From assembly GCA_002010305.1 (NCBI GenBank), contig MTND01000027.1, positions 154,369-218,368 of the forward strand: a DNA stretch of 64,000 nt, read 5' to 3'. The notes beneath the pieces are model-generated. The model did not search any database. It saw only the letters and a list, made by a program, of their open reading frames with translations, and had not been told where the DNA came from. A program made the position numbers and the translations under genes. The first letter of the stretch is position 1, and each line of letters opens with the position of its first letter. Positions 16,462-41,074 of the stretch are shown here, piece after piece. The stretch is from Archaeoglobi archaeon JdFR-42 (GTDB lineage: Archaea > Halobacteriota > Archaeoglobi > Archaeoglobales > JdFR-42).

Positions 16462-18182
16462 CCTTCCCTCCTGAGCCTTTTTGTTGCTTCCTCATCAACT
16501 TTCATGGTCTTCGGGTTAATTACAACTTTGTAATCTTCTTTCGCCTTTTCTATGGTAACCTTTCCGTCCCTGACATCCCGTTCAATCAGAGAGAAATCTC
16601 TTTCTAGTGGGTCGCCATATCCTCCTCCGCCAGGAAGTCTGAGGCTAACCACATCATTAAGTCTCAACGTGCTGATGCCCTTAGATTTCAGCCTTGTACC
16701 GTTTGAATGAGGATTGAGAATGAATCTGCCAGGAGTACCTGACTTACCTCCAAACAGACCATGAGGGGGGAATTCCTGGCTATCACCGTATCTTGCGAAA
16801 GAGACTTCATCTACAAGGAATCTGATATCTCTTCTCAATCCAAGAGCTCCTCTGAACTTTCCAGCTCCTCCAGAGTCGGGAATAAATTCGTACATCTCAA
16901 TCATAACAGGATACTCAACTTCAATAGCCTCGATAGGAGTGTTCATGAACCTAGCAAGATGGGAATCCTGTCCATCTTTACCATCTTTAATGGGTCTTGC
17001 TCCAGCACCTCCACCCTGTATTTCAGTATAAACCCATCTCTTTCTGGTACCTGGATAAAATCCACTAAACCCACAGGTAGAGATCTGTCCATGGCTCCCG
17101 GCCATTACCCTGTCTGGAGCTGCTTCGCTCAGAGCCTTCATCATGGCCTCGGTGATTTTTTGAGAACAATTCGTTCTGGCTGCTACAGCTGCAGGTGGAC
17201 GAGGATTCACAATGAGCCCTTCTTCAGCTTCAACACTCACAGGCCTGTAACATCCAGAATTTGTAGGGATATGGGGGTCTACAACCGCTATGATTGAATA
17301 ATACACTGCTGCATGAGTGGTTGCAATGGGACAGTTGATGTTACCCTTTACTTGCTTGGATGTTCCCTTAAAATCCACTTTTACATTGTCTCCATCAATT
17401 TGGACATTTACCTGTATTGGGATGGGGTCATCAGTCACACCGTCATTGTCGATGAAAACTTCTCCTGTGTATTTCCCGTCTGGTAATTTCTCAATCCCTT
17501 CTCTCATTCTTCTCTCCGAATAGTCAAGGAGAGCTGCAAGACATTCTTGAATTACCTCCTTGCCATATTTCTTATAAAGATCCTGGATTTTTCTGACCCC
17601 CACATAGTTGGCAGATACCTGAGCCCTGATATCACCCAGTGTTTTCTCTGGCACTCTGATGTTGTTTCTTAGAATAGCAAATACATCCTCATTTTCCTGG
17701 AATTTTTTATACAGTTTTATCATGGGCAACCGTAGACCTTCCATATAGATTTCTGTCATTCCACCAGCTACTCCTCCTGGAGCGGCTCCACCCATATCAG
17801 CCATATGAGCAATATTACCCACAAAACCCACCAGATCTCCATTATAATGCACAGGAGCAAAGGTCTGGACATCCATGATATGCTGACCACCCATATAAGG
17901 ATCGTTAGATATGATCACATCTCCTTCATCAAGGACTTCTGGCGGGAATCGCTTTACGAGTTCTCGCATGGTAATTTCAAAGCCTGTAAGCAACATTGGT
18001 GCATGATGGGCCTGAGCTATGGTACCTCCGTTCTCGTCAAACACAGCACAGGTGATATCCATGATCTCTTTAATGATGGTCGATCTGCCAGTTCTGACAA
18101 GGGTATAACCCATTTCGTCTGCTATTTGCTCAAGGGCGTATCGGATAACCTGCATGGTAATGGGGTCTGCTTTATACTTCAT
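16458..18182 (-). CDS. hyuB: Hydantoinase B / oxoprolinase / carboxylase alpha-like subunit
   Basis: HyuB-family catalytic chain, about 574 residues as usual. It opens with DPITMQVIRYALEQIADEMG and contains NDPYMGGQHIMDV, HMADMGGAAPGG, NCPIATTHAA and the C-terminal LRLPGGGGYGDP. With HyuA this family uses ATP either to open cyclic amides (N-methylhydantoin, 5-oxoproline) or to carboxylate ketones (acetone, acetophenone). The ATG at 18182 overlaps the HyuA stop by 4 nt behind a long AGGTGGT Shine-Dalgarno. Neighbouring CoA enzymes rather than amidases make a carboxylase-like role on the way to acyl-CoA an attractive but unproven choice. Confidence 0.88.
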   Translation of the reverse strand: MKYKADPITMQVIRYALEQIADEMGYTLVRTGRSTIIKEIMDITCAVFDENGGTIAQAHHAPMLLTGFEITMRELVKRFPPEVLDEGDVIISNDPYMGGQHIMDVQTFAPVHYNGDLVGFVGNIAHMADMGGAAPGGVAGGMTEIYMEGLRLPMIKLYKKFQENEDVFAILRNNIRVPEKTLGDIRAQVSANYVGVRKIQDLYKKYGKEVIQECLAALLDYSERRMREGIEKLPDGKYTGEVFIDNDGVTDDPIPIQVNVQIDGDNVKVDFKGTSKQVKGNINCPIATTHAAVYYSIIAVVDPHIPTNSGCYRPVSVEAEEGLIVNPRPPAAVAARTNCSQKITEAMMKALSEAAPDRVMAGSHGQISTCGFSGFYPGTRKRWVYTEIQGGGAGARPIKDGKDGQDSHLARFMNTPIEAIEVEYPVMIEMYEFIPDSGGAGKFRGALGLRRDIRFLVDEVSFARYGDSQEFPPHGLFGGKSGTPGRFILNPHSNGTRLKSKGISTLRLNDVVSLRLPGGGGYGDPLERDFSLIERDVRDGKVTIEKAKEDYKVVINPKTMKVDEEATKRLRREG

Positions 18183-32186: not shown

Positions 32187-33665
32187 ATGATGGATGTGGA
32201 AGAAATATTTGAAGAAATTATGATTACTCCTTCCAATGCCCCTGTATATCTTCTCCATGGAGAAGAAGTAAACATCTGGGATGAACCTTTTGAGTATTAC
32301 CATTCCCGATCTCCTACGGAATACATCCGGGAAAAAATACTCGAGTTTGAGAAGTCCGGAAAGGACCCTTTTCCAGATATCGTAGGAAAAGAGAAGGAGA
32401 AGGAGATGGTTAAAACAGCCCTCATGAGCGGTTCAAGTATACTCTTCAAAGGTAAACGCGGATATGGAAAAACAACTTTTTCGAAAGCAATTGCAAAACT
32501 CCTTCCAGATAAGCTTCTGGCCATTAAAGGATGTAAAATCCATGACGATCCTACACGACCTACCTGTTTCTCCTGTAAAAAGAAAGTTCTTCATGAGAGA
32601 GAGGTAGAGCTTGAATGGGTTCCAAGAGTTTGGGTCAGGATACCGGGAGATCCAATGATGACCACTAGACAGTTGATTGGGGGTATATCCATCCAGAAAA
32701 TACGAGAAGGGTATGATCTGGACCACCCTGAAGTGTTTGTTCCCGGCAGAGCTCTTAAAGCCAACAGAGGGATCGGTTATTATGACGAGCTCGGGGCTAT
32801 TCCTACAGCCCTTCAGACTCTCCTTCATGAACTCTTCGAAGAGGGTCAGATAACTACTCCAGAGGGTGATGTGGTCCCTTTTCATCTAAACTCCATAGAA
32901 ATCGCTTCCACAAATCCTGCCAATTACCGTGGAACCAGTCCAATTAAAGAACCCCTTCTTGATAGGATGGAGCAGATTGAGATTGGTCCTCCAGAATCTC
33001 TGGAAGAGGAGATCGAAATTGGATTGAGAAACTCTCATTATAGAAAAATGGAAGAAGTGGCAAAAATCCCTGTCTGGCATATGAAAATCCTAGCTAGAAT
33101 TGTCAGATATGCCAGAAGCAAACGATGCCATATCGCCTCTAAAATAACTTCTGAGCCATCATGCAGGGCTACCATCAAACTATATGACCACGTCATATCC
33201 TACGCTATTCGTAATGGAAAGTCTGTTATTACTCTTGAAGACTATGGAAACAACTATGATGTGGTTAAACTCGCTCTTGGAGGGAGATTGGAAGTCACTT
33301 ATGAAGTAGAAACTGAGAAAGAAAAAATAATAGAAAAACTGGTTGAAGAGGCAATTAACAGAACATGTGCGGATATTTACGCTACAATACCCAGAGAAGA
33401 GTTTAATTTCATATTAAAAGAAATACTATCTATGGGCTACAAAATGAATGGAACCATAAAAATAGAACTTCGAGAAGCTGTTGAAAGGTTACCTGAATTC
33501 AAAAAAGTTAATGAGTTAATTCAAACTCTGGCGGAAGATAAGTGGATGCGTCTATCTGCCCTTGAGATCTTGCTTGAATCTATTGGGAGATGTACAGGAC
33601 TTATAAGGCGAGAATATAACCATTATGTGGTAGAATATGATGAAACCAGATTGCAGGCTATGTGA
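32187..33665 (+). CDS. AAA+ ATPase, MoxR/Mg-chelatase ChlI-like, with embedded Cys cluster
   Basis: The AAA+ core has Walker A in FKGKRGYGKTT and a Walker B-like GIGYYDELGAIP; sensor-1 Asn is in IASTNPANYRG. Between Walker A and B an insert carries CKIHDDPTRPTCFSCKKK, four Cys or His residues likely to hold zinc. About 200 further residues form the lid and a C-terminal domain. The ATG (32187 or 32190) overlaps no gene. Together with the VWA gene (overlap 29 nt) it resembles methanogen ChlI-like/VWA pairs whose target is unknown. No CobN/ChlH large subunit is present, so true chelatase activity is not supported. Confidence 0.85.
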   Translation: MMDVEEIFEEIMITPSNAPVYLLHGEEVNIWDEPFEYYHSRSPTEYIREKILEFEKSGKDPFPDIVGKEKEKEMVKTALMSGSSILFKGKRGYGKTTFSKAIAKLLPDKLLAIKGCKIHDDPTRPTCFSCKKKVLHEREVELEWVPRVWVRIPGDPMMTTRQLIGGISIQKIREGYDLDHPEVFVPGRALKANRGIGYYDELGAIPTALQTLLHELFEEGQITTPEGDVVPFHLNSIEIASTNPANYRGTSPIKEPLLDRMEQIEIGPPESLEEEIEIGLRNSHYRKMEEVAKIPVWHMKILARIVRYARSKRCHIASKITSEPSCRATIKLYDHVISYAIRNGKSVITLEDYGNNYDVVKLALGGRLEVTYEVETEKEKIIEKLVEEAINRTCADIYATIPREEFNFILKEILSMGYKMNGTIKIELREAVERLPEFKKVNELIQTLAEDKWMRLSALEILLESIGRCTGLIRREYNHYVVEYDETRLQAM

Positions 33666-34929
33666 AAGTGAGAGCAGTCTCACTGACTTGATGGGAGAAG
33701 AGAGAATAAAAGATTTGCTTCGATCTCTCTTTAATCCTTATGAAGAAATTGATAATGATTCTAAATTGGATCTTGAAGATTTTCTTAAAGAATTTCTGGA
33801 CGAATCAGGAAATACAGGTAGAGAGAACCAGAACTATTACTGGGATCTTTACAATGAACTTATGAAACACTTTGATGAGAGATTTGCTGAAGTTTGGCTC
33901 CAAGAATTTAGGAACTCCGTTGATTTTGATACAATGGGAAAATTTAAGAGAGCCAGACGACAGGCCTGGGAACAGCTACTAGAAATGATTCGAGAGGGGA
34001 TAGTCGACCCCTCAGATATTTCCATGAGTCAAATGGTCAGAACTTTCCACTCAGAAATCATAGAAGCCCTTGAAAAAGAAGAATACATTCAAAAGACTTT
34101 AAGATCCAGGATAACCAGACCGAAATTCACATTCAAAGGTGAAAAGCTTCTTGGAAAGAGAATTCTTGAGGTTTCAATGTCTCTTCTGAAAAAAGGATTC
34201 CATGGAATACACGAAGTTGAAGCTTTTGGATCAGGACTTACTCCTGGCGCGAATCTTGAAGACTATGACGAGGTCCTTCACACTTTCGATATGATAGACA
34301 TACAAGAATCTTGTTTGACTGCCGCTATAAAAGATCCCTTAAAAATGGAGCTAAAGGATGAGTTTATCAAGGTAAGAACTCCACATCAAATGGTACGATG
34401 CTCTATCGTAATCCTGATCGACTGCTCCGATTCTATGAAAGGCCATAAAATGATTGGAGCTATTGAAGCAGCCCTTGGACTGAAAGAACTTCTTGAAGAG
34501 GAATATAAAGAAGATCGTATATGGGTAGCAGGTTTTAATCACACGATCTCAGAGTTACAACCAGGAGAGATAGCAAATCTGAGACCTTATGGTACGACAG
34601 ATATAGGTCTAGCTCTCAATTACGCTAGGCGTATTCTTATGAAGGAGGACGAGAACAGGAGTATTTTCCTGATCACAGATGGAGAACCAACCACTTCGGC
34701 TCATTCAAGATACAGCCCAATAGAAAGCGCTCTAAGGGAATCATATCACATAGGAAAAGAAGATATAACTCTGAATATAATCATGCTTGATTCTCATCCT
34801 CGGCTTAAATATCTGTGTGTCGAAATGGCAAAAAGGGCCGAGAAAGCTCATGTAGCTTTCGTAAATCCTATCAACCTAAAAGAGTTCATAATACGGTCAT
34901 ATATAAGTCACAAATATTCTCGCTTCTGA
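33637..34929 (+). CDS. VWA-domain protein, partner of the AAA+ ATPase
   Basis: The C-terminal ~190 residues are a von Willebrand A domain with an intact MIDAS: DCSDSMKG, the Thr in YGTTDIG, and ITDGEPT. The N-terminal ~230 residues are helical and charged, as in BchD/CoxE/NorD-type adaptors. The start near CRLCES overlaps the ATPase end by 29 nt, so the pair is translated together. These pairs act as metal-insertion or complex-remodelling chaperones in known cases. Which enzyme is served here cannot be read from the neighbours; the tungsten AOR is only one possibility. Confidence 0.85.
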   Translation: MMKPDCRLCESESSLTDLMGEERIKDLLRSLFNPYEEIDNDSKLDLEDFLKEFLDESGNTGRENQNYYWDLYNELMKHFDERFAEVWLQEFRNSVDFDTMGKFKRARRQAWEQLLEMIREGIVDPSDISMSQMVRTFHSEIIEALEKEEYIQKTLRSRITRPKFTFKGEKLLGKRILEVSMSLLKKGFHGIHEVEAFGSGLTPGANLEDYDEVLHTFDMIDIQESCLTAAIKDPLKMELKDEFIKVRTPHQMVRCSIVILIDCSDSMKGHKMIGAIEAALGLKELLEEEYKEDRIWVAGFNHTISELQPGEIANLRPYGTTDIGLALNYARRILMKEDENRSIFLITDGEPTTSAHSRYSPIESALRESYHIGKEDITLNIIMLDSHPRLKYLCVEMAKRAEKAHVAFVNPINLKEFIIRSYISHKYSRF

Positions 34930-34986: not shown

Positions 34987-35085
34987 GCTTACAACGTTGT
35001 AAATCGTTGATTTACAAGTCGTAAACAATAGTTTACAACATTGTAAATCGTTGATTACAAATTGTAAGCTCCGGTTACAACATTT
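34987..35085. repeat. Three ~44-bp degenerate repeats built from TTACAA/TTGTAA palindromes
   Basis: Units begin at about 34987, 35031 and 35074 (period 44 and 43). Units 1 and 2 share ACAACRTTGTAAATCGTTGA; unit 3 keeps only its start. Palindromes inside are TTACAACGTTGTAA (34989-35002), TTTACAA-CA-TTGTAAA (35032-35047) and TTACAA-A-TTGTAA (35055-35067). The block lies between two convergent gene ends, and the third unit covers the stop codon of the minus-strand wHTH gene. Confidence 0.75.
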
Positions 35086-35362
35086 TAGAAATGTCCAGCT
35101 CAAGAGAATCCATACTATCCATGAACTTCTTTGATTTTTTCAAAACTTCCAGTCCTTTTTTCGAAGTCTTATATATGGCCTGATCTTTCCCCTTTTTTAT
35201 TATCAGACCCTCAGATATCAACATGTCAAGATATCTTGATGCCTCTTTAAAATTCAGATTTGCTTCATATACTACTCTGGTTTTATTAGCTCCATTGATT
35301 GATATCTCTAATATTTTGAGGATTATTACAAATTTACTCCTTCTTTTCATCATTCCCCCCAT
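35075..35362 (-). CDS. Small winged-helix DNA-binding protein
   Basis: A 95-residue archaeal wHTH of the COG3432 type. KFVIILKILEISINGANKTRVVYEANLNFKEASRYLDMLI forms the three-helix core, and GLIIKKGKDQAIYKTSKKG forms the wing, followed by a C-terminal helix likely used for dimerisation. Starts at 35362, 35353 or 35350 are all possible because a G-run and two ATGs follow each other. It is the last minus-strand gene of the DUF1102/SipW locus, 30 bp after the DUF5305 gene, so it may regulate that locus. The palindromic repeats at its 3' end are possible binding sites. Confidence 0.8.
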   Translation of the reverse strand: MGGMMKRRSKFVIILKILEISINGANKTRVVYEANLNFKEASRYLDMLISEGLIIKKGKDQAIYKTSKKGLEVLKKSKKFMDSMDSLELDISKML

Positions 35363-35392
35363 TGAAACTGACTATTTGGTAGATATATCCTC

Positions 35393-36427
35393 TCATGCTG
35401 ATTTATTTTTGCTATAACCAGCTCGAAACATATATACTACATTTCCGTCTATTACTTTATAATCAGTACTCCCATTAATATGGATGATGGGTTTACCAAT
35501 GTCCTCAGCAACTTTTATTAAATCCTCAAAGGAGTTTACCAGTATCTCAGTTCCTTTCTCTTTCTGGCCTGATGACTTCACAATCCATGATCGGTACTTA
35601 GTGTTTATATTGTCTAGTGTGTTCTCAACAGTTGTTTTCCTCACCATAAGGTTGAACCCTGAGAACGCAAGCATAACCAGAGAGACTGCCAGTCCACCAA
35701 GACCCACTTTCCTAAGAGAACCAACTCCTATCTGGATTCCCATGAGGTTTACTAGGTTCTCTACATATTGCCTATTCTTTTTAACTATCCATTGTTTTTC
35801 CTCTTTCGGGTTGTTCACTTCTAGAATTTTTCCCAGTTTAAGAGATGATTTATGAATGATAGCTTCAGTGATCGGATTTCCATCAACATCTCCTTCAAGT
35901 TTTATTTTGGCAATGAAAGCTATACTACGGGTAGGTTCCTTTACTCCTGTTTCGCCTTCTATTTTGCTAAAAACCTGGTTAATCTCAGATAGATTAACCG
36001 GGAAAGTTGTTCTGACTCCTCCATCTTCCATAGAAAAAATTCCCGAATCAGAAAAGGGTAACTCATATGTCCATAGTGGAGACTCATATCTACCCTCAAC
36101 CAAAAGTGCTGAAATCACATACTCGCCCCGATAGCTACTGTTTCTAGGCATATCTGAAGAAAAAGAGTAAGTAACATTCATAGATTTTACCAGCTTCTGA
36201 AATATTTTTCCATCTTCACTAGTGATAGTTTTTTCAGGATAAAGAATGTTCGGATGTAGCTCTGCCATATATACAAAAGAGCTTCTAGTAGTGTATCCCA
36301 GTATATTTTCCTCAACAGTATATAAAGGCTTTGAATAACTAGCCCATAATAGAAATGCAGAGAGGAGAAGGAGTACAACTCCAATGACTGTAATGACTTT
36401 TAATATAATTACTCTGTTAGAGATCAT
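35393..36427 (-). CDS. DUF5305-like membrane-anchored extracellular protein
   Basis: The N-terminal helix (ILKVITVIGVVLLLLSAFLLWASY) is followed by YTVEENILGYTTRSSFVYMAELHPNILYP, the characteristic opening of DUF5305-type proteins, a beta-rich extracellular domain to residue ~230, and a second helix (VGLGGLAVSLVMLAFSGF) before a ~90-residue cytoplasmic tail. I assign DUF5305 from memory of the motif. Such proteins occur beside SipW-like peptidases and DUF1102 proteins in other Euryarchaeota. ATG 36427 has GGGGGTGG 7 nt upstream and is preferred to 36451. The 150-bp space upstream contains TATA-like ACTATATATAGT. Confidence 0.72.
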   Translation of the reverse strand: MISNRVIILKVITVIGVVLLLLSAFLLWASYSKPLYTVEENILGYTTRSSFVYMAELHPNILYPEKTITSEDGKIFQKLVKSMNVTYSFSSDMPRNSSYRGEYVISALLVEGRYESPLWTYELPFSDSGIFSMEDGGVRTTFPVNLSEINQVFSKIEGETGVKEPTRSIAFIAKIKLEGDVDGNPITEAIIHKSSLKLGKILEVNNPKEEKQWIVKKNRQYVENLVNLMGIQIGVGSLRKVGLGGLAVSLVMLAFSGFNLMVRKTTVENTLDNINTKYRSWIVKSSGQKEKGTEILVNSFEDLIKVAEDIGKPIIHINGSTDYKVIDGNVVYMFRAGYSKNKSA

Positions 36428-36601
36428 TTCCCTTCCACCCCCTAGGTTCATTAAACTTTACAAACCTTCTAAGAGTATCTTCTGAGATCTCATCATTATG
36501 ACTGATACTATATATAGTTATAGCTCATTTTATAACATATTCGATTTGAACATATATTGTTATAGAACCATAAGATACATACCTATATAACCAACTTATA
36601 G

Positions 36602-37549
36602 CTACTTATCACATCCATCATCGTTCTCATTTTCATGGACTTCGATACAGATTTTGTTACTTTTCATGTCTTCTATGCTGTAATGTTTACCATAGATGTC
36701 AAAACCTTTAACCTCAGCCCCCTCATTTAAACAATAATCTCCTGGTGAGGTGAAACCACACTTTTTCATCCCGTGTCCTACTTCCTTCTCCCTAGTCTCA
36801 ATCACCATATCTAGATATGCTCCTTCTCCAGATACAAGATCAAGAGTCCAAGTTATATGAGTTGAGCTACCATGAGTTTCTGAATCCGTTGAACCTTTAG
36901 ATGGTGAGAGAGAGATAAGTTCCAGTTCTCCAGGAATGACATCCTTTATCTCAATATCTGTCATGTCAACCATCCCTGAATTATTCACATATAATCTCAA
37001 GCCCCATTCATAGCTTGTATTAGTATGGAGGTCTTCAGTCTCTCCATATAGAAGTTCTTTCCGCAGATCCAGATTAGGATCTATAACCCGTATCTCGAGG
37101 GGACAGTCGGATGTGTTAACTTCTGCTTCTCCATCACTCCACTCAGATACAATTCTAAAATATGCATAATAAGTCCCTGCTACAGCATTCTCTCCAGCTT
37201 CAACCTCACCATAAATATCCTCGGTCTCTCCAGGTAACAGGGTAAATGAGTCTGGTGAGATATCGGATATACTCAGATCAGTTTGTGGGCCACTCCAACC
37301 CTCAAAAAAGATTTCCATATCCATGGTTCTGTTCATTTTGTTTCCGATTACTACCAGCTCTCCATAAGTAGAATCATCAATTAACACTGTTAGGTTTCCA
37401 CCTTCAAAAGAAATAAAGGCGTTTTCACATGGAGCAACATATACAAGAGAACTTCTTTCGGTCATATACCATGCAAAATCTGAGTTTATTCCCGCAAACC
37501 CTCCAGATATCCCGGCAAAAAGTATAATCATCAGCAGATATTTTTTCAT
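36602..37549 (-). CDS. Secreted DUF1102/TasA-like protein with a DUF11-type domain
   Basis: A signal peptide (YLLMIILFAGISGGFAG) leads into NSDFAWYMTERSSLVYV, which matches the mature N-termini of the two DUF1102 proteins encoded upstream (GADFASYDAQR, GADFADYTASR). A second beta domain (residues ~150-290) is of DUF11/repeat type (YVNNSGMVDMTDIEIKDVIPGEL). Cys residues occur in pairs (KKCGF, DYCLN, ICIE, GCDK). Length is 316 residues. The gene starts at ATG 37549 with AGGTGGT before it and overlaps the peptidase stop by 4 nt. It could be a minor, capping or anchoring subunit of the fibre proposed for this locus. Confidence 0.7.
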   Translation of the reverse strand: MKKYLLMIILFAGISGGFAGINSDFAWYMTERSSLVYVAPCENAFISFEGGNLTVLIDDSTYGELVVIGNKMNRTMDMEIFFEGWSGPQTDLSISDISPDSFTLLPGETEDIYGEVEAGENAVAGTYYAYFRIVSEWSDGEAEVNTSDCPLEIRVIDPNLDLRKELLYGETEDLHTNTSYEWGLRLYVNNSGMVDMTDIEIKDVIPGELELISLSPSKGSTDSETHGSSTHITWTLDLVSGEGAYLDMVIETREKEVGHGMKKCGFTSPGDYCLNEGAEVKGFDIYGKHYSIEDMKSNKICIEVHENENDDGCDK

Positions 37550-38631
37550 CCTGACCACCTTAACATTCCCATAAACTGTTTTCTCATCCTTCTCCTCATT
37601 CTGATTATGCTAGCCAGCCTCCACCGATATATCTCATCCCTTCCAAGTACACCGTAGGCTAAAAACAAACCAGCCAGAACAACCAGATCAACCACCAACA
37701 CTGGCAGATACTCATGCATAGCTGCCAGTCTATCAAGTACTGCAAGAGGGGTTAGTGGGAGGTATCGATACACCATAACTTCTTCTATATGAAGCCTAGT
37801 ATCGTCTGGTGCGTGTATTGTCACTTCAACATCTTTAGATTCCCCAGACTTCAGGAAAAACCCCGATGGAGAATTAAGCTCTAGATTTCTAGCTTTTTCT
37901 ACATTCAATATGACATATACTGGATAGAGAGCATTATTCTCTACTTGAAAACTTCGTTCAAATACTGCTCCTGGAGCAACCCATTCGGGCCTAAGCCCTG
38001 CAGCTGAGGTGGTTCCATACTGAATAATCTCTCTGTCAAAGGAACTTACCATGGTGAATGTCAAGACGGCGACCACAATTAGGGCAAATATTGAATAGAT
38101 TTGGAGGAATCGTACTTTTATAAACCTTTTTCTCCGCTTCTTTGTTCTTAATTTATCCTCTCCGATTGCCATCAAGTACATACCAGTAATAAATAAAATT
38201 GTAGAAATGAAAATCTTTTTCTCAACTCCAGAAAGGGACAGATACTTTCCAGCTCCTTTGAGAAGGATTGGTGAGTCCATGAATTCGATTACCTTACCTG
38301 CTATATCTTTCCTCATCACAATTTTTCCGCCACCAATCTGGTCAGTAGCCACATTAGCATCACCTTTGGTAATGTACCCACCTTCAGTAACACCAACAAT
38401 CCGATGGCAGATCCATTCGTCTCCAGCCTTAAAGACTATAATATCTCCAATCTGATAATCCCTGGCCAGAGGGTTAATAATAAAAGCATCATATCTGCTG
38501 ATAGTCGGCTCCATACTATCTGAATACACGTAAGCAAATATCACGGGCCTGTTGAATATTGCCCCCACTAAAGATACAAGGGCCAACAGAATTATTCCGG
38601 TTACTACTATATTTACAAGGATTTTTTTCAT
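37546..38631 (-). CDS. SipW-like signal peptidase I with C-terminal membrane/Ig extension
   Basis: Archaeal/ER-type signal peptidase: the catalytic Ser is in YVYSDSMEPTI, the His that replaces the bacterial Lys is in ICHRIVG, and the acidic box is ITKGDAN. Residues ~1-130 are the peptidase. Two more helices (FISTILFITGMYLMAIG, IYSIFALIVVAVLTFTMV), a ~100-residue beta-sandwich and a final helix (VVDLVVLAGLFLAYGVL) follow. The fused extracellular domain is absent from housekeeping peptidases. SipW processes TasA in Bacillus, so this enzyme probably processes the DUF1102 proteins around it. Confidence 0.88.
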   Translation of the reverse strand: MKKILVNIVVTGIILLALVSLVGAIFNRPVIFAYVYSDSMEPTISRYDAFIINPLARDYQIGDIIVFKAGDEWICHRIVGVTEGGYITKGDANVATDQIGGGKIVMRKDIAGKVIEFMDSPILLKGAGKYLSLSGVEKKIFISTILFITGMYLMAIGEDKLRTKKRRKRFIKVRFLQIYSIFALIVVAVLTFTMVSSFDREIIQYGTTSAAGLRPEWVAPGAVFERSFQVENNALYPVYVILNVEKARNLELNSPSGFFLKSGESKDVEVTIHAPDDTRLHIEEVMVYRYLPLTPLAVLDRLAAMHEYLPVLVVDLVVLAGLFLAYGVLGRDEIYRWRLASIIRMRRRMRKQFMGMLRWSG

Positions 38632-38660
38632 TTTCTTACCTTTTATTTAGTTTTTTATTA

Positions 38661-39152
38661 TTATGTTGGCTGGGTGACACTAATACTGACAATATCTTCA
38701 ATTAAATCCCCGGCAGAATATTCAGAAGTGTCTATCACCATGCCTATGTTAGCCTCTTCACCGGGGCTCAATATGAACGTGATAATATTAGAGGCTGTAT
38801 TTGAACTGGAATGAGAAATATCACCGGGAGAGTACAGCAGGACCCCTGCTTCCTGCACACTCACCGTAAACTCATACACTCCCGAGCTATTATTTACGTT
38901 CTTCACACTAAACAAACTATCTATTACATGTATCGAGTCCGGGGCAACTCCACCATCATACAGAGGGTTTTCAGGAGTTATGTTTATTTCCAGCTTTCCA
39001 GAATCATTAATATAAGAATAAGGGGAGTTGGGTATCAATTCATAGATGAGATTAACATCTCCATCTCCCTGAGTATACACACCCGTTCCCGTTAATAGTA
39101 TCAGGATAATCAATACAATGACAAATATTGTCGTTAACCCTTTTTTATACAT
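38661..39152 (-). CDS. Divergent DUF1102/TasA-like secreted protein
   Basis: An N-terminal hydrophobic segment (LTTIFVIVLIILILLTGTGVY) is followed by a ~130-residue beta domain. YSYINDSGKLEINITPENP...GVAPDSIHVIDSLFSVKN aligns in order with YAYITSDGVMTIDLSTNNP...GVSPDTHYNFDNVFYVSN of the next paralogue, so it is a third family member that lacks the DFAxY start. ATG 39152 has GGGTG 5 nt upstream; the track start at 39164 does not. It lies 30 nt upstream of the peptidase start, suggesting joint transcription. The gap between it and the next paralogue upstream holds a terminator. Confidence 0.68.
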   Translation of the reverse strand: MYKKGLTTIFVIVLIILILLTGTGVYTQGDGDVNLIYELIPNSPYSYINDSGKLEINITPENPLYDGGVAPDSIHVIDSLFSVKNVNNSSGVYEFTVSVQEAGVLLYSPGDISHSSSNTASNIITFILSPGEEANIGMVIDTSEYSAGDLIEDIVSISVTQPT

Positions 39153-39255
39153 TTTTACACCCATTCTAGATATTTTTTACTGATTGAGAAAATTTTGTTA
39201 AATCGACGATCTTGATTGATTCTGAATTTAATCCTATCACTCAATATCTATCACT

Positions 39256-39284
39256 CCTCCACTAAAAAAAATAAAAAATGGAGG
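39256..39284 (-). terminator. U-rich terminator after DUF1102 gene pair
   Basis: On the minus strand, 3 nt after the stop codon, CCTCCA and TGGAGG (6-bp perfect arms) flank TTTTTTATTTTTTTTAG. A poly-U tract of this kind ends transcription in archaea and would separate the two DUF1102 genes from the peptidase genes. Confidence 0.65.
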
Positions 39285-39287
39285 TAC

Positions 39288-39839
39288 TCAGGTGCTTGGC
39301 CATGCATTTATTGTCAAAGAGCCGGAAACCGAGTCAGGCGCACTCATACCGGTAGTATTGATGTCCAGTCCTACACCAACCTGTTCCCCTGGATCAACTG
39401 TAAAGTATATCTCTGTGGATGAAGTGCTTGAATTCACGTGACCATACCACTCATCTGGAGTATATAGCGCTATATGTGTCCCTGAAACCACTATTTGCAC
39501 ATCAATTGAGACGTTATCCCACAGACCATTGGATACATAGAACACATTGTCGAAGTTGTAGTGAGTGTCCGGACTTACACCAAGTCCCCACCATCCGGGG
39601 TTAAGACTTTCATTTTGATAGTTGGGGTTGTTTGTTGAGAGATCAATCGTCATAACTCCATCGGATGTAATATATGCATAATACTGGCCTGGAGTGAGGT
39701 CTATGAACTCCTGGTCATCTGCAACCACTGCCACTGTAAAATTCCTCTGTGCATCATAGCTGGCAAAATCAGCTCCAGTGCCAATGAAGGCAATAGTACC
39801 GATTGCAATCAGCATTAATACCATCAGTTTAGTTTTCAT
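39288..39839 (-). CDS. DUF1102-family (TasA/camelysin-like) secreted protein, copy A
   Basis: Signal peptide (LMVLMLIAIGTIAFIGTGA) with likely SipW cleavage before DFASYDAQRNFTVAVVADD, then an all-beta domain of ~155 residues ending LTINAWPST. The VAVVADDQEFIDLTP and NNPNYQNESLNPGWWG blocks are shared with copy B. There are no Cys residues and several N-x-S/T sequons (NES, NVS, NSS, NTT), suggesting surface glycosylation. GGAGGGTGAT 5 nt before ATG 39839 predicts high expression. A strong terminator follows. DUF1102 is assigned from memory. Candidate major fibre or matrix subunit. Confidence 0.75.
   Translation of the reverse strand: MKTKLMVLMLIAIGTIAFIGTGADFASYDAQRNFTVAVVADDQEFIDLTPGQYYAYITSDGVMTIDLSTNNPNYQNESLNPGWWGLGVSPDTHYNFDNVFYVSNGLWDNVSIDVQIVVSGTHIALYTPDEWYGHVNSSTSSTEIYFTVDPGEQVGVGLDINTTGMSAPDSVSGSLTINAWPST
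39585..39634 (+). repeat. 50-bp exact repeat, copy 1 (within DUF1102 gene A)
   Basis: Identical base for base to 40158-40207 (573 bp apart, direct orientation). It encodes the NNPNYQNESLNPGWWG block. Flanking bases differ at once on both sides. Confidence 0.9.
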
Positions 39840-39845
39840 CAGTCA

Positions 39846-40412
39846 TCACCCTCCATTATCAGCTGGCTCTGCATGAATGGTCAGTGTGCCGTTAAGCCAG
39901 TCACCTGCATCATTGGCCCATCCCATTAGATGCATTCCTACAGATACCTCTCCTCCTGGATACACGTAAAAGCTAATTTCTTGCAAAGCTGAGTCAGAGG
40001 ACCATGCACCTTCAAGTGATTCTTCATTGTGGGTGTAAAGTTCAACAAAAGGATTGCTAGAACTTATCGTTACAAGGATTGTGACGTTATCCCATAGGTC
40101 ATTGGATACGTTGAACACATCATTAAAGTTGTATCTTGAATCAGGGCTTATACCGATTCCCCACCATCCGGGGTTAAGACTTTCATTTTGATAGTTGGGG
40201 TTGTTTGCGCTGAAATCAATCACTAGAACTCCTCTGTCATCTATATACGCATAGGGTTGCATTGGAGTGAGATCAATTAACTCCTGATCGTCTGCAACTA
40301 CTGCTATGTGAGCACTTCGAGATGCTGTATAGTCTGCAAAATCAGCTCCTACACCGAGCACCATCAGTATCCCCAGAGCGACCATTATTGCTCCTAACAT
40401 TTTCATTTTCAT
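39846..40412 (-). CDS. DUF1102-family (TasA/camelysin-like) secreted protein, copy B
   Basis: Tandem paralogue of copy A, 6 nt upstream of it in the same transcript. Signal peptide (MLGAIMVALGILMVLGVGA), mature start DFADYTASRSAHIAVVADD, and the same beta domain ending LTIHAEP. Loops differ, with a more acidic central segment (THNEESLEGAW). The track's GTG 40424 is inside GAGGTGA; ATG 40412 is the likely start. As in copy A there are no Cys. Two similar, probably abundant secreted subunits next to a dedicated peptidase suggest a heteropolymeric fibre or S-layer-associated coat. Confidence 0.75.
   Translation of the reverse strand: MKMKMLGAIMVALGILMVLGVGADFADYTASRSAHIAVVADDQELIDLTPMQPYAYIDDRGVLVIDFSANNPNYQNESLNPGWWGIGISPDSRYNFNDVFNVSNDLWDNVTILVTISSSNPFVELYTHNEESLEGAWSSDSALQEISFYVYPGGEVSVGMHLMGWANDAGDWLNGTLTIHAEPADNGG
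40158..40207 (+). repeat. 50-bp exact repeat, copy 2 (within DUF1102 gene B)
   Basis: Second copy of the block at 39585-39634. Exact identity includes wobble positions, while the rest of the two genes has diverged. Confidence 0.9.
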
Positions 40413-40600
40413 TTTTCCTTTCACCTCATTTTTTCTGTTTTAAATGCATGATCATCATAAATCCAATGCTACATAGTTAATAGCCAACTAATTTAGAGCT
40501 ATTCAGCCATTAACTCATAGATAGTGAGATGTTACTCTCTGATAATGACCAATTGCTCAGATACACCACATAAGGTAATGGTATGTTACCCTTCAACCAT

Positions 40601-41074
40601 TCACATCTTCTCAAGGAATGATGAAGTTGTTCTCGCCTGTATTACCGAATGAGCAGCAGAACTCATGAAGAATATGGATGACACTACAATTGCCCACATC
40701 TCTCCCAGAAACAGACTGGACAACAGCATGATAGAAGACAAACCGAGGTAATAATAACTCCAAGGTATATTCCCTGATTCCACAGCCTCAAGATACAGCT
40801 TCATATCAGGAGAAGTATGGAGGAGTACAACGTTACCGTTGGAATCCATTTTTATAACACCCGATCTCTCAAGCTTGGGAATGTGTGTTTGAATAAGACT
40901 TACATATATGCTTTTTCTACCTTTGGATGTTGTACAGCCCTCTAATTCACTCATATAGGCCAAGATATCTTTTAAGCTTCCTTCACCCCCATTATTCATC
41001 AGGTATTTAATTAGATTCCTCCTTCGTCTGTTAGCGAGGAGGTAATGAATACCTTCATCTTTCATCCCGCCCAT
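40601..41074 (-). CDS. DUF7344-like winged-helix protein with two membrane helices
   Basis: Residues ~1-95 form a wHTH (HYLLANRRRRNLIKYLMNN, then KSIYVSLIQTHIPKLERSGVI, a pattern I associate with haloarchaeal DUF7344 regulators). Residues ~105-145 form two hydrophobic helices (WSYYYLGLSSIMLLSSLF, MWAIVVSSIFFMSSAA). A membrane-tethered DNA-binding protein could report envelope state. It lies ~190 bp upstream of the DUF1102 pair on the same strand and is the natural regulator of the locus. The exact start is 41074 or ATG 41065. The region between it and copy B (40413-40600) is non-coding promoter space. Confidence 0.72.
   Translation of the reverse strand: MGGMKDEGIHYLLANRRRRNLIKYLMNNGGEGSLKDILAYMSELEGCTTSKGRKSIYVSLIQTHIPKLERSGVIKMDSNGNVVLLHTSPDMKLYLEAVESGNIPWSYYYLGLSSIMLLSSLFLGEMWAIVVSSIFFMSSAAHSVIQARTTSSFLEKM

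Follow-up and report, generated by a model that had tools for sequence, protein, structure and literature searches.

The gene cluster

Within the 64,000 nucleotides (nt) of contig MTND01000027.1 of Archaeoglobi archaeon JdFR-42 that were analysed here (the window), eight genes, named A to H below, lie in the same direction on the minus strand between positions 35075 and 41074. They encode secreted beta proteins, a SipW-like signal peptidase, a DUF5305 membrane protein and two winged-helix proteins. Judged by these genes and their predicted folds, the locus probably represents a variant of the donor-strand fibre systems in which a signal peptidase of its own is fused to an immunoglobulin (Ig)-like domain. 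An earlier note, made from the sequence alone, had proposed a matrix or pilus locus here. Every gene it claimed is present; A, B, C, D, G and H score above curated cut-offs, and E above that of TIGR02228. The features, in the direction of transcription, are:

40601..41074, minus strand: gene A, first of the cluster; DUF7344 winged-helix regulator with a C-terminal hydrophobic (transmembrane) segment (PF24035, 57.2 bits, cut-off 27.8)
39846..40424, minus strand: gene B, first major subunit, DUF1102 (PF06510, 141.9 bits, gathering cut-off 22.2); likely start ATG at 40412
40317..40343, minus strand: donor motif DFADYTASR of B, directly past the predicted cleavage site between Ala27 and Asp28 (Phe at P2')
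39288..39839, minus strand: gene C, second major subunit, DUF1102 (PF06510, 120.8 bits, cut-off 22.2)
39744..39770, minus strand: donor motif DFASYDAQR of C
39256..39284, minus strand: terminator-like element 3' of C, CCTCCA - T6AT8AG - TGGAGG, from sequence and cross-locus comparison
38661..39164, minus strand: gene D, which has the DUF1102 core but no donor motif and is proposed to be an end piece that only accepts (PF06510, 59.3 bits, cut-off 22.2)
37546..38631, minus strand: gene E, SipW-like signal peptidase of the endoplasmic reticulum (ER) type with extra transmembrane segments and an extracellular Ig-like domain (TIGR02228, 71.2 bits, cut-off 51.85)
37732..38037, minus strand: Ig-like extracytoplasmic domain of E, between transmembrane segments 3 and 4 (weak Ig-type hidden Markov model matches at residues 216-295; transmembrane scan)
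36602..37549, minus strand: gene F, secreted two-domain Ig-like protein with donor motif and without DUF1102 domain, proposed nucleator or tip (DUF11, 25.8 bits); start ATG at 37549, overlapping the stop codon of E by 4 nt (ATGA)
37454..37480, minus strand: donor motif DFAWYMTER of F
35393..36451, minus strand: gene G, DUF5305 membrane protein with two transmembrane segments (PF17231, 85.6 bits)
35075..35362, minus strand: gene H, Sso10a/HTH_45 winged-helix protein (NF053610, 76.2 bits, cut-off 60)

A start of the form DFAxYxxxR past the signal peptide is found in B, C and F, and the DUF1102 core in B, C and D, exactly the "start in three, core in three" of the earlier note. The whole source genome has exactly three DUF1102 genes (B, C and D) and three signal peptidase genes (E and two others). 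The two major subunits had been called near-identical. This is not the case, as B and C share only 53% of their protein and 69% of their DNA sequence, despite a 50-nt tract that is identical in C (39585-39634) and B (40158-40207). Because this tract encodes an insert (NESLNPGWW) that most relatives lack, it suggests recent gene conversion between the two genes. Rfam gave no match within the locus.

The major subunits

All structure models in this study are of single chains with the signal peptide removed. The AlphaFold2 model of mature B (54 sequences) is essentially all-beta, with a mean predicted local distance difference test (pLDDT) of 84 and a predicted template modelling score (pTM) of 0.80; residues 1-7 (DFADYTA) are disordered (pLDDT <50). 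Modelled blind in this way, B found as its best match among 350,542 PDB chains (Foldseek) the bundling pilin AbpA of Pyrobaculum calidifontis (7ueg, E 6.4e-5, probability 1.00), followed by FimA. AbpA builds a donor-strand-complemented, TasA-like archaeal filament, according to passages in PMC9674648 and PMC9715654. By this ranking, though with a weak superposition, the model of B does not contradict the expectation that the subunits would model as TasA-like jelly rolls. The sequences do not bear out a TasA relationship: the TasA/camelysin profiles PF12389, TIGR04088 and NF046066 match none of B, C, D and F, and homology between DUF1102 and TasA by profile comparison was too weak to claim. PDB sequence searches with the DUF1102 and F profiles yielded nothing credible.

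In the alignment of B, Ala27, Phe29 and R36 are invariant, and cleavage past Ala27 places Phe at P2'. TasA likewise has Phe at P2'; LepB, a bacterial P-type peptidase, handles its signal peptide poorly, and SipW cuts it (PMC10269814). Across 51 loci the donor motif F..Y.A.R is found in 50 of 51 first and in all 49 second DUF1102 genes. A few of the loci from the scan of named genomes belong to the same genomes as those from the scan of the order, and identical sequences were counted once.

Two further attempts to place the subunits were set aside. The NCBIfam family TafA matched C only partially (21 bits, cut-off 190), had no match in the seven Thermococcales genomes tested and led to no paper, and was not used. 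To model strand exchange, the B-C tandem was also read across its two TGA codons in one frame; this was dropped because almost all homologues were aligned to the first half.

Separately, a 522-amino-acid protein at L046:6959-8527 and L048:9695-11263 combines donor motif and DUF1102 core with two further domains, one integrin-like VWA and one of the NEW3 type. Its domains make it a probable adhesive fibre subunit.

The signal peptidase

Ser39, His76 and Asp91 of E are invariant in 22 homologues, which gives E the Ser-His dyad of ER-type peptidases and not Ser-Lys; its best PDB sequence match is SEC11 (1.9e-13). The Ig-like domain is flanked by two further transmembrane segments, and its residues Tyr205, Thr208, Ala210, Trp217, Pro220 and Phe224 are invariant in the same 22 homologues. 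Full-length E (a model of 345 positions) occurs in exactly those 25 of 57 Archaeoglobales genomes that bear DUF1102, with 420-486 bits versus about 71 bits or less for all other peptidases of the order. With the SipW equivalog NF046067 it reaches 32.9 bits, far under the cut-off of 190.

In a tree of the catalytic domains E forms one clade (99/99), outside of which lie two housekeeping groups (100/100 and 100/99) and the SipWs of TasA loci. Since E has its own clade, it does not cluster with either group of housekeeping signal peptidases, as it would have had to for the earlier note to be refuted on this point. Together with the confinement of E to the DUF1102-bearing genomes of the order, this substantiates the proposal of a dedicated SipW-like peptidase.

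One genome (G026) has two copies of E, one of which (L047:6706-7723) is split into two overlapping frames, as if broken; the other is intact.

Two partners, proposed to be complementary

The remaining secreted proteins, F and D, differ from the major subunits in opposite ways. The donor motif is present in 36 of 45 F genes versus 3 of 23 third-position DUF1102 genes in the 51 loci, and several of the F proteins without it are short, have a single domain and show the motif in shortened form. Modelled alone with AlphaFold2, F (pLDDT 88.5) has two ordered beta domains, and its donor segment (residues 1-13) is disordered; its fold matches are generic Ig-type proteins. The homologues of D lead from the signal peptide directly into the DUF1102 core without a donor strand, the motif being absent from 20 of 23.

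Proteins that only donate are known from other fibres. TapA, a complete Ig fold, donates a strand and cannot receive one, so it only starts a filament (PMC10151520), and Saci_0405 of the threads is described in part of PMC9715654 as a donor-only cap protein lacking an acceptor site. By analogy, F would donate and not accept, because its donor strand sits on complete Ig-like domains, and, like TapA with TasA, it would start or tip the fibre. D, which has kept the DUF1102 core and lost the donor strand, would accept and not donate, and could thereby close the other end.

Haloarchaeal loci point in the same direction. Among 26 loci with E, 17 of the 20 DUF1102-like genes that lie immediately upstream of E are without the motif, which is present in 44 of the 53 other DUF1102-like genes. 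The D-like proteins encoded next to E are larger there. A C-terminal transmembrane segment is predicted in 11 of the 15 examined and two more have the same kind of tail under the threshold; in most of those examined, the segment is followed by basic residues. The F-like proteins carry the donor motif and a Sec-type signal but lack a C-terminal transmembrane segment, and often lie beside DUF7344. This suggests an arrangement with D at the membrane, F at the far end and the donor strands toward the cell. Because the haloarchaeal D equivalent has this membrane anchor, D is most likely the cell-proximal base. In the same haloarchaeal fibre loci (L137-L164) the major subunits have twin-arginine translocation (Tat) signals (RRxF), and most D- and F-like partners are of the Sec type.

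Expression and regulation

Of 49 loci, 36 have a U-tract or GC hairpin after the second major subunit: a U-tract in 17 of 27 loci of the Archaeoglobales, a GC hairpin such as GGAGCCTTTGCTCC in 19 of 22 of the Thermococcales. Such an element was never found past the first subunit, the third subunit or E, and past F in 4 of 38 loci. The separately terminated segment for minor subunit and peptidase that the earlier note had read from one sequence is thus supported across loci. The distribution fits partial termination past C, which would leave the major subunits in excess.

In the Archaeoglobales every DUF7344 protein above the cut-off adjoins a DUF1102 cluster. In about eight loci, DUF7344 is replaced by an Sso10a-type winged-helix protein directly upstream, and in others it has no membrane hairpin; relatives of H elsewhere lie upstream, in place of A or beside it. 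Because of these replacements and losses, the envelope-sensing control that had been read into gene A is unproven.

DUF5305 behaves differently. It also occurs at other sites in the order where, in the intact neighbourhoods examined, it adjoins a different SipW-like peptidase and secreted subunits, mostly of the TasA/camelysin type (PF12389, TIGR04088) where tested. We therefore rejected the idea that DUF5305 is specific to DUF1102 loci. The expected co-occurrence with DUF1102 and SipW held for DUF7344 above its cut-off within the order, and failed for DUF5305. On its neighbourhoods DUF5305 is a general partner of SipW fibres and, being common to both locus types, it gives the DUF1102 loci an independent link with fibres of the TasA type.

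The second locus type, found in Archaeoglobales relatives (L113-L119), combines TasA/camelysin subunits and DUF5305 with one SipW-like peptidase or two. Both types occur together in some genomes, e. g. G020, G026, G001 and G004.

Distribution

The order A-B-C-(D)-E-F-G recurs in about 27 loci of Archaeoglobales and 22 of Thermococcales, with H nearby and the order largely kept in the Archaeoglobales; this recurrence means that the arrangement is not due to chance. As far as the contigs extend, the Thermococcales loci show the same operon. DUF1102 is present in 87 of 94 Thermococcaceae genomes, and a scan of named genomes for DUF1102 returned only Archaeoglobales and Thermococcales. Through weaker Pfam matches, a clustering of full-length E with DUF5305, DUF7344 and DUF1102-like proteins was found in haloarchaea too. 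The E profile matched 92 of 394 genomes of the phylum at E<=1e-20, some of them in the catalytic part only. The gene kit spans three major archaeal groups and has apparently not yet been studied; the open-access literature, to which the search extended, yielded no paper on DUF1102.

In the tree of E, the Thermococcales label requires three changes among the Archaeoglobales, which suggests that the E gene, probably with its operon, was transferred between the two groups. No relative of E was found in viral contigs.

Around the cluster, an ATPase-like protein and a VWA-domain protein are encoded on the plus strand (window 32187-34929), convergent with it. Two palindromic repeats TTACAACRTTGTAAATCGTTGATT lie between the convergent genes at 34989-35056. 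The sequence TTACAANNTTGTAA occurs three times in the window (0.21 expected), the third copy being at 16520.

Comparison with known systems

The AbpA pilin is the best fold match of B but stands at a distance from it (11% identity, template modelling score 0.40, no link found between sequence profiles). With TasA-SipW-TapA of Bacillus subtilis the locus has in common a dedicated ER-type signal peptidase beside its subunits, Phe at P2' and, in F and TapA, a partner that would donate an N-terminal strand from a complete Ig fold. It is set apart by B, C, D and F, none of which matches PF12389 or TIGR04088, and by E with its added Ig domain and 32.9 instead of 190 bits. Where the cited literature treats the tapA-sipW-tasA genes, it names neither DUF5305 nor DUF7344 nor an acceptor-only piece of the D type. 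The camelysin/TasA-SipW-DUF5305 loci L113-L119 belong to the same taxonomic order and likewise have a SipW-type peptidase followed by DUF5305, but they have PF12389/TIGR04088 subunits, peptidases in other clades, no DUF7344 and no full-length E.

The threads of Sulfolobus acidocaldarius (Saci_0406/Saci_0405) also rely on donor-strand complementation and have a donor-only cap, the logic proposed for F. In the published model, as given in part of PMC9715654, they are in contrast processed by signal peptidase I and not by a dedicated SipW, and no acceptor-only partner is reported there. The threads protein was absent from the 50 best fold matches of B. Chaperone-usher pili (FimA) supplied the next-best fold matches of B and use donor-strand exchange, yet the cluster contains neither a chaperone nor an usher gene. 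Genes for type IV pili (class III signal peptide, prepilin peptidase, assembly ATPase) were found neither in the cluster nor in its homologues.

A model of the fibre

We think it probable that the locus encodes a self-contained fibre, a pilus or matrix filament, which is assembled by donor-strand exchange and has its own peptidase, with F and D as its ends. B and C would be exported and cut by E just ahead of the strand x-Phe-x-x-Tyr-x-Ala-x-Arg. The N-terminal strand freed in this way would complete the beta-sandwich of a neighbouring subunit, so that B and C polymerise. F, as a donor only, would start or tip the fibre; D, as an acceptor only, would close its membrane end, most likely as the cell-proximal base, and the fibre would grow from the membrane. 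With the terminator-like element between C and D, the majors would outnumber the end pieces and the peptidase. DUF7344 and the Sso10a-type winged-helix proteins may control expression, and DUF5305 and the Ig domain of E probably help with assembly or anchoring at the membrane. The core of the earlier proposal, a dedicated SipW-like peptidase locus with TasA/AbpA-like subunits, was contradicted by neither of its checks, the subunit fold and the peptidase tree; fibre formation is what we infer from it.

Several observations weigh against this model. The superposition of B on AbpA is weak (template modelling score 0.40, root mean square deviation 8.9, 11% identity), and we therefore call the fold TasA/AbpA-like by ranking and not by superposition. 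Comparison of the DUF1102 profile with 13 archaeal TasA-type proteins gave no link (hhalign probability 31%, 38 columns). The models behind the proposed strand insertion are of single chains. Some F genes are cut down to one domain with a shortened motif, and TapA is absent from the 50 best fold matches of F; we therefore say that F works like TapA, not that it is a TapA. About one in two Archaeoglobales loci and several of the Thermococcales have no D, and the D of the window has no membrane anchor. In the literature we found neither an experiment nor published proteomics on the DUF1102 locus.

A wider reading goes beyond this single locus, and we put it forward tentatively. The loci of Archaeoglobales, Thermococcales and haloarchaea could represent one ancient family of archaeal donor-strand fibres whose ends are F, a tip or nucleator that only donates, and D, a base that only accepts and that has a membrane anchor in haloarchaea. 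The complementary partial subunits at the two ends would then fix the polarity of the fibre, with donor strands toward the cell and growth at the membrane. The Ig-fused peptidase would be a candidate assembly platform, and the haloarchaeal majors would be exported folded via Tat.

Other explanations concern the ends first. F could be an adhesin or decoration of such a fibre and D a minor or alternative subunit, whose loss of the donor strand would reflect relaxed function instead of a role as end piece. The absence of D from many loci would fit this, as would the divergence of its sequences (20-34% identity to the D of the window), the variable length of F (about 120 to 460 amino acids) and the DUF1102-VWA fusion of 522 amino acids, which shows that decorated subunits exist. 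However, loss of the donor strand with retention of the core recurs directly before E in Archaeoglobales, Thermococcales and haloarchaea, and F keeps the donor motif while the rest of it changes. We thus consider this explanation rather unlikely.

Still further from our model, DUF1102 proteins might be SipW-processed secreted beta-sandwich proteins that form an envelope coat or a monomeric or lattice matrix without donor-strand fibres, E being specialised merely for unusual signal peptides. No filament has been seen, the locus being known here from its genes, and the template modelling score to AbpA is below 0.5. Yet the best PDB matches of B are donor-strand pilins, its mature N-terminal peptide is invariant although disordered in the monomer model, and a donor-only and an acceptor-only partner are conserved, which makes a coat or matrix of this kind improbable. 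Hardly credible is a regulated secretion or quality-control module in which E, DUF5305 and DUF7344 sense envelope stress with DUF1102 proteins as reporter ligands: DUF7344 and DUF5305 are membrane-linked and a regulatory role is reported for SipW of B. subtilis too (PMC13082335), but the majors lie ahead of a terminator-like element, as expected of abundant structural products, and DUF7344 lacks the transmembrane hairpin in several loci.

If the fibre model is right, a surface fibre that has not been studied is encoded by nearly all Thermococcaceae and by many of the Archaeoglobales and haloarchaea, in genes that so far count mostly as domains of unknown function. DUF1102, DUF5305 and DUF7344 would gain a role and a link to the machinery that makes biofilm in Bacillus with SipW and TasA. 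Fibre polarity, which a passage of PMC9715654 calls unknown for archaeal donor-strand fibres, would become testable through F and D.

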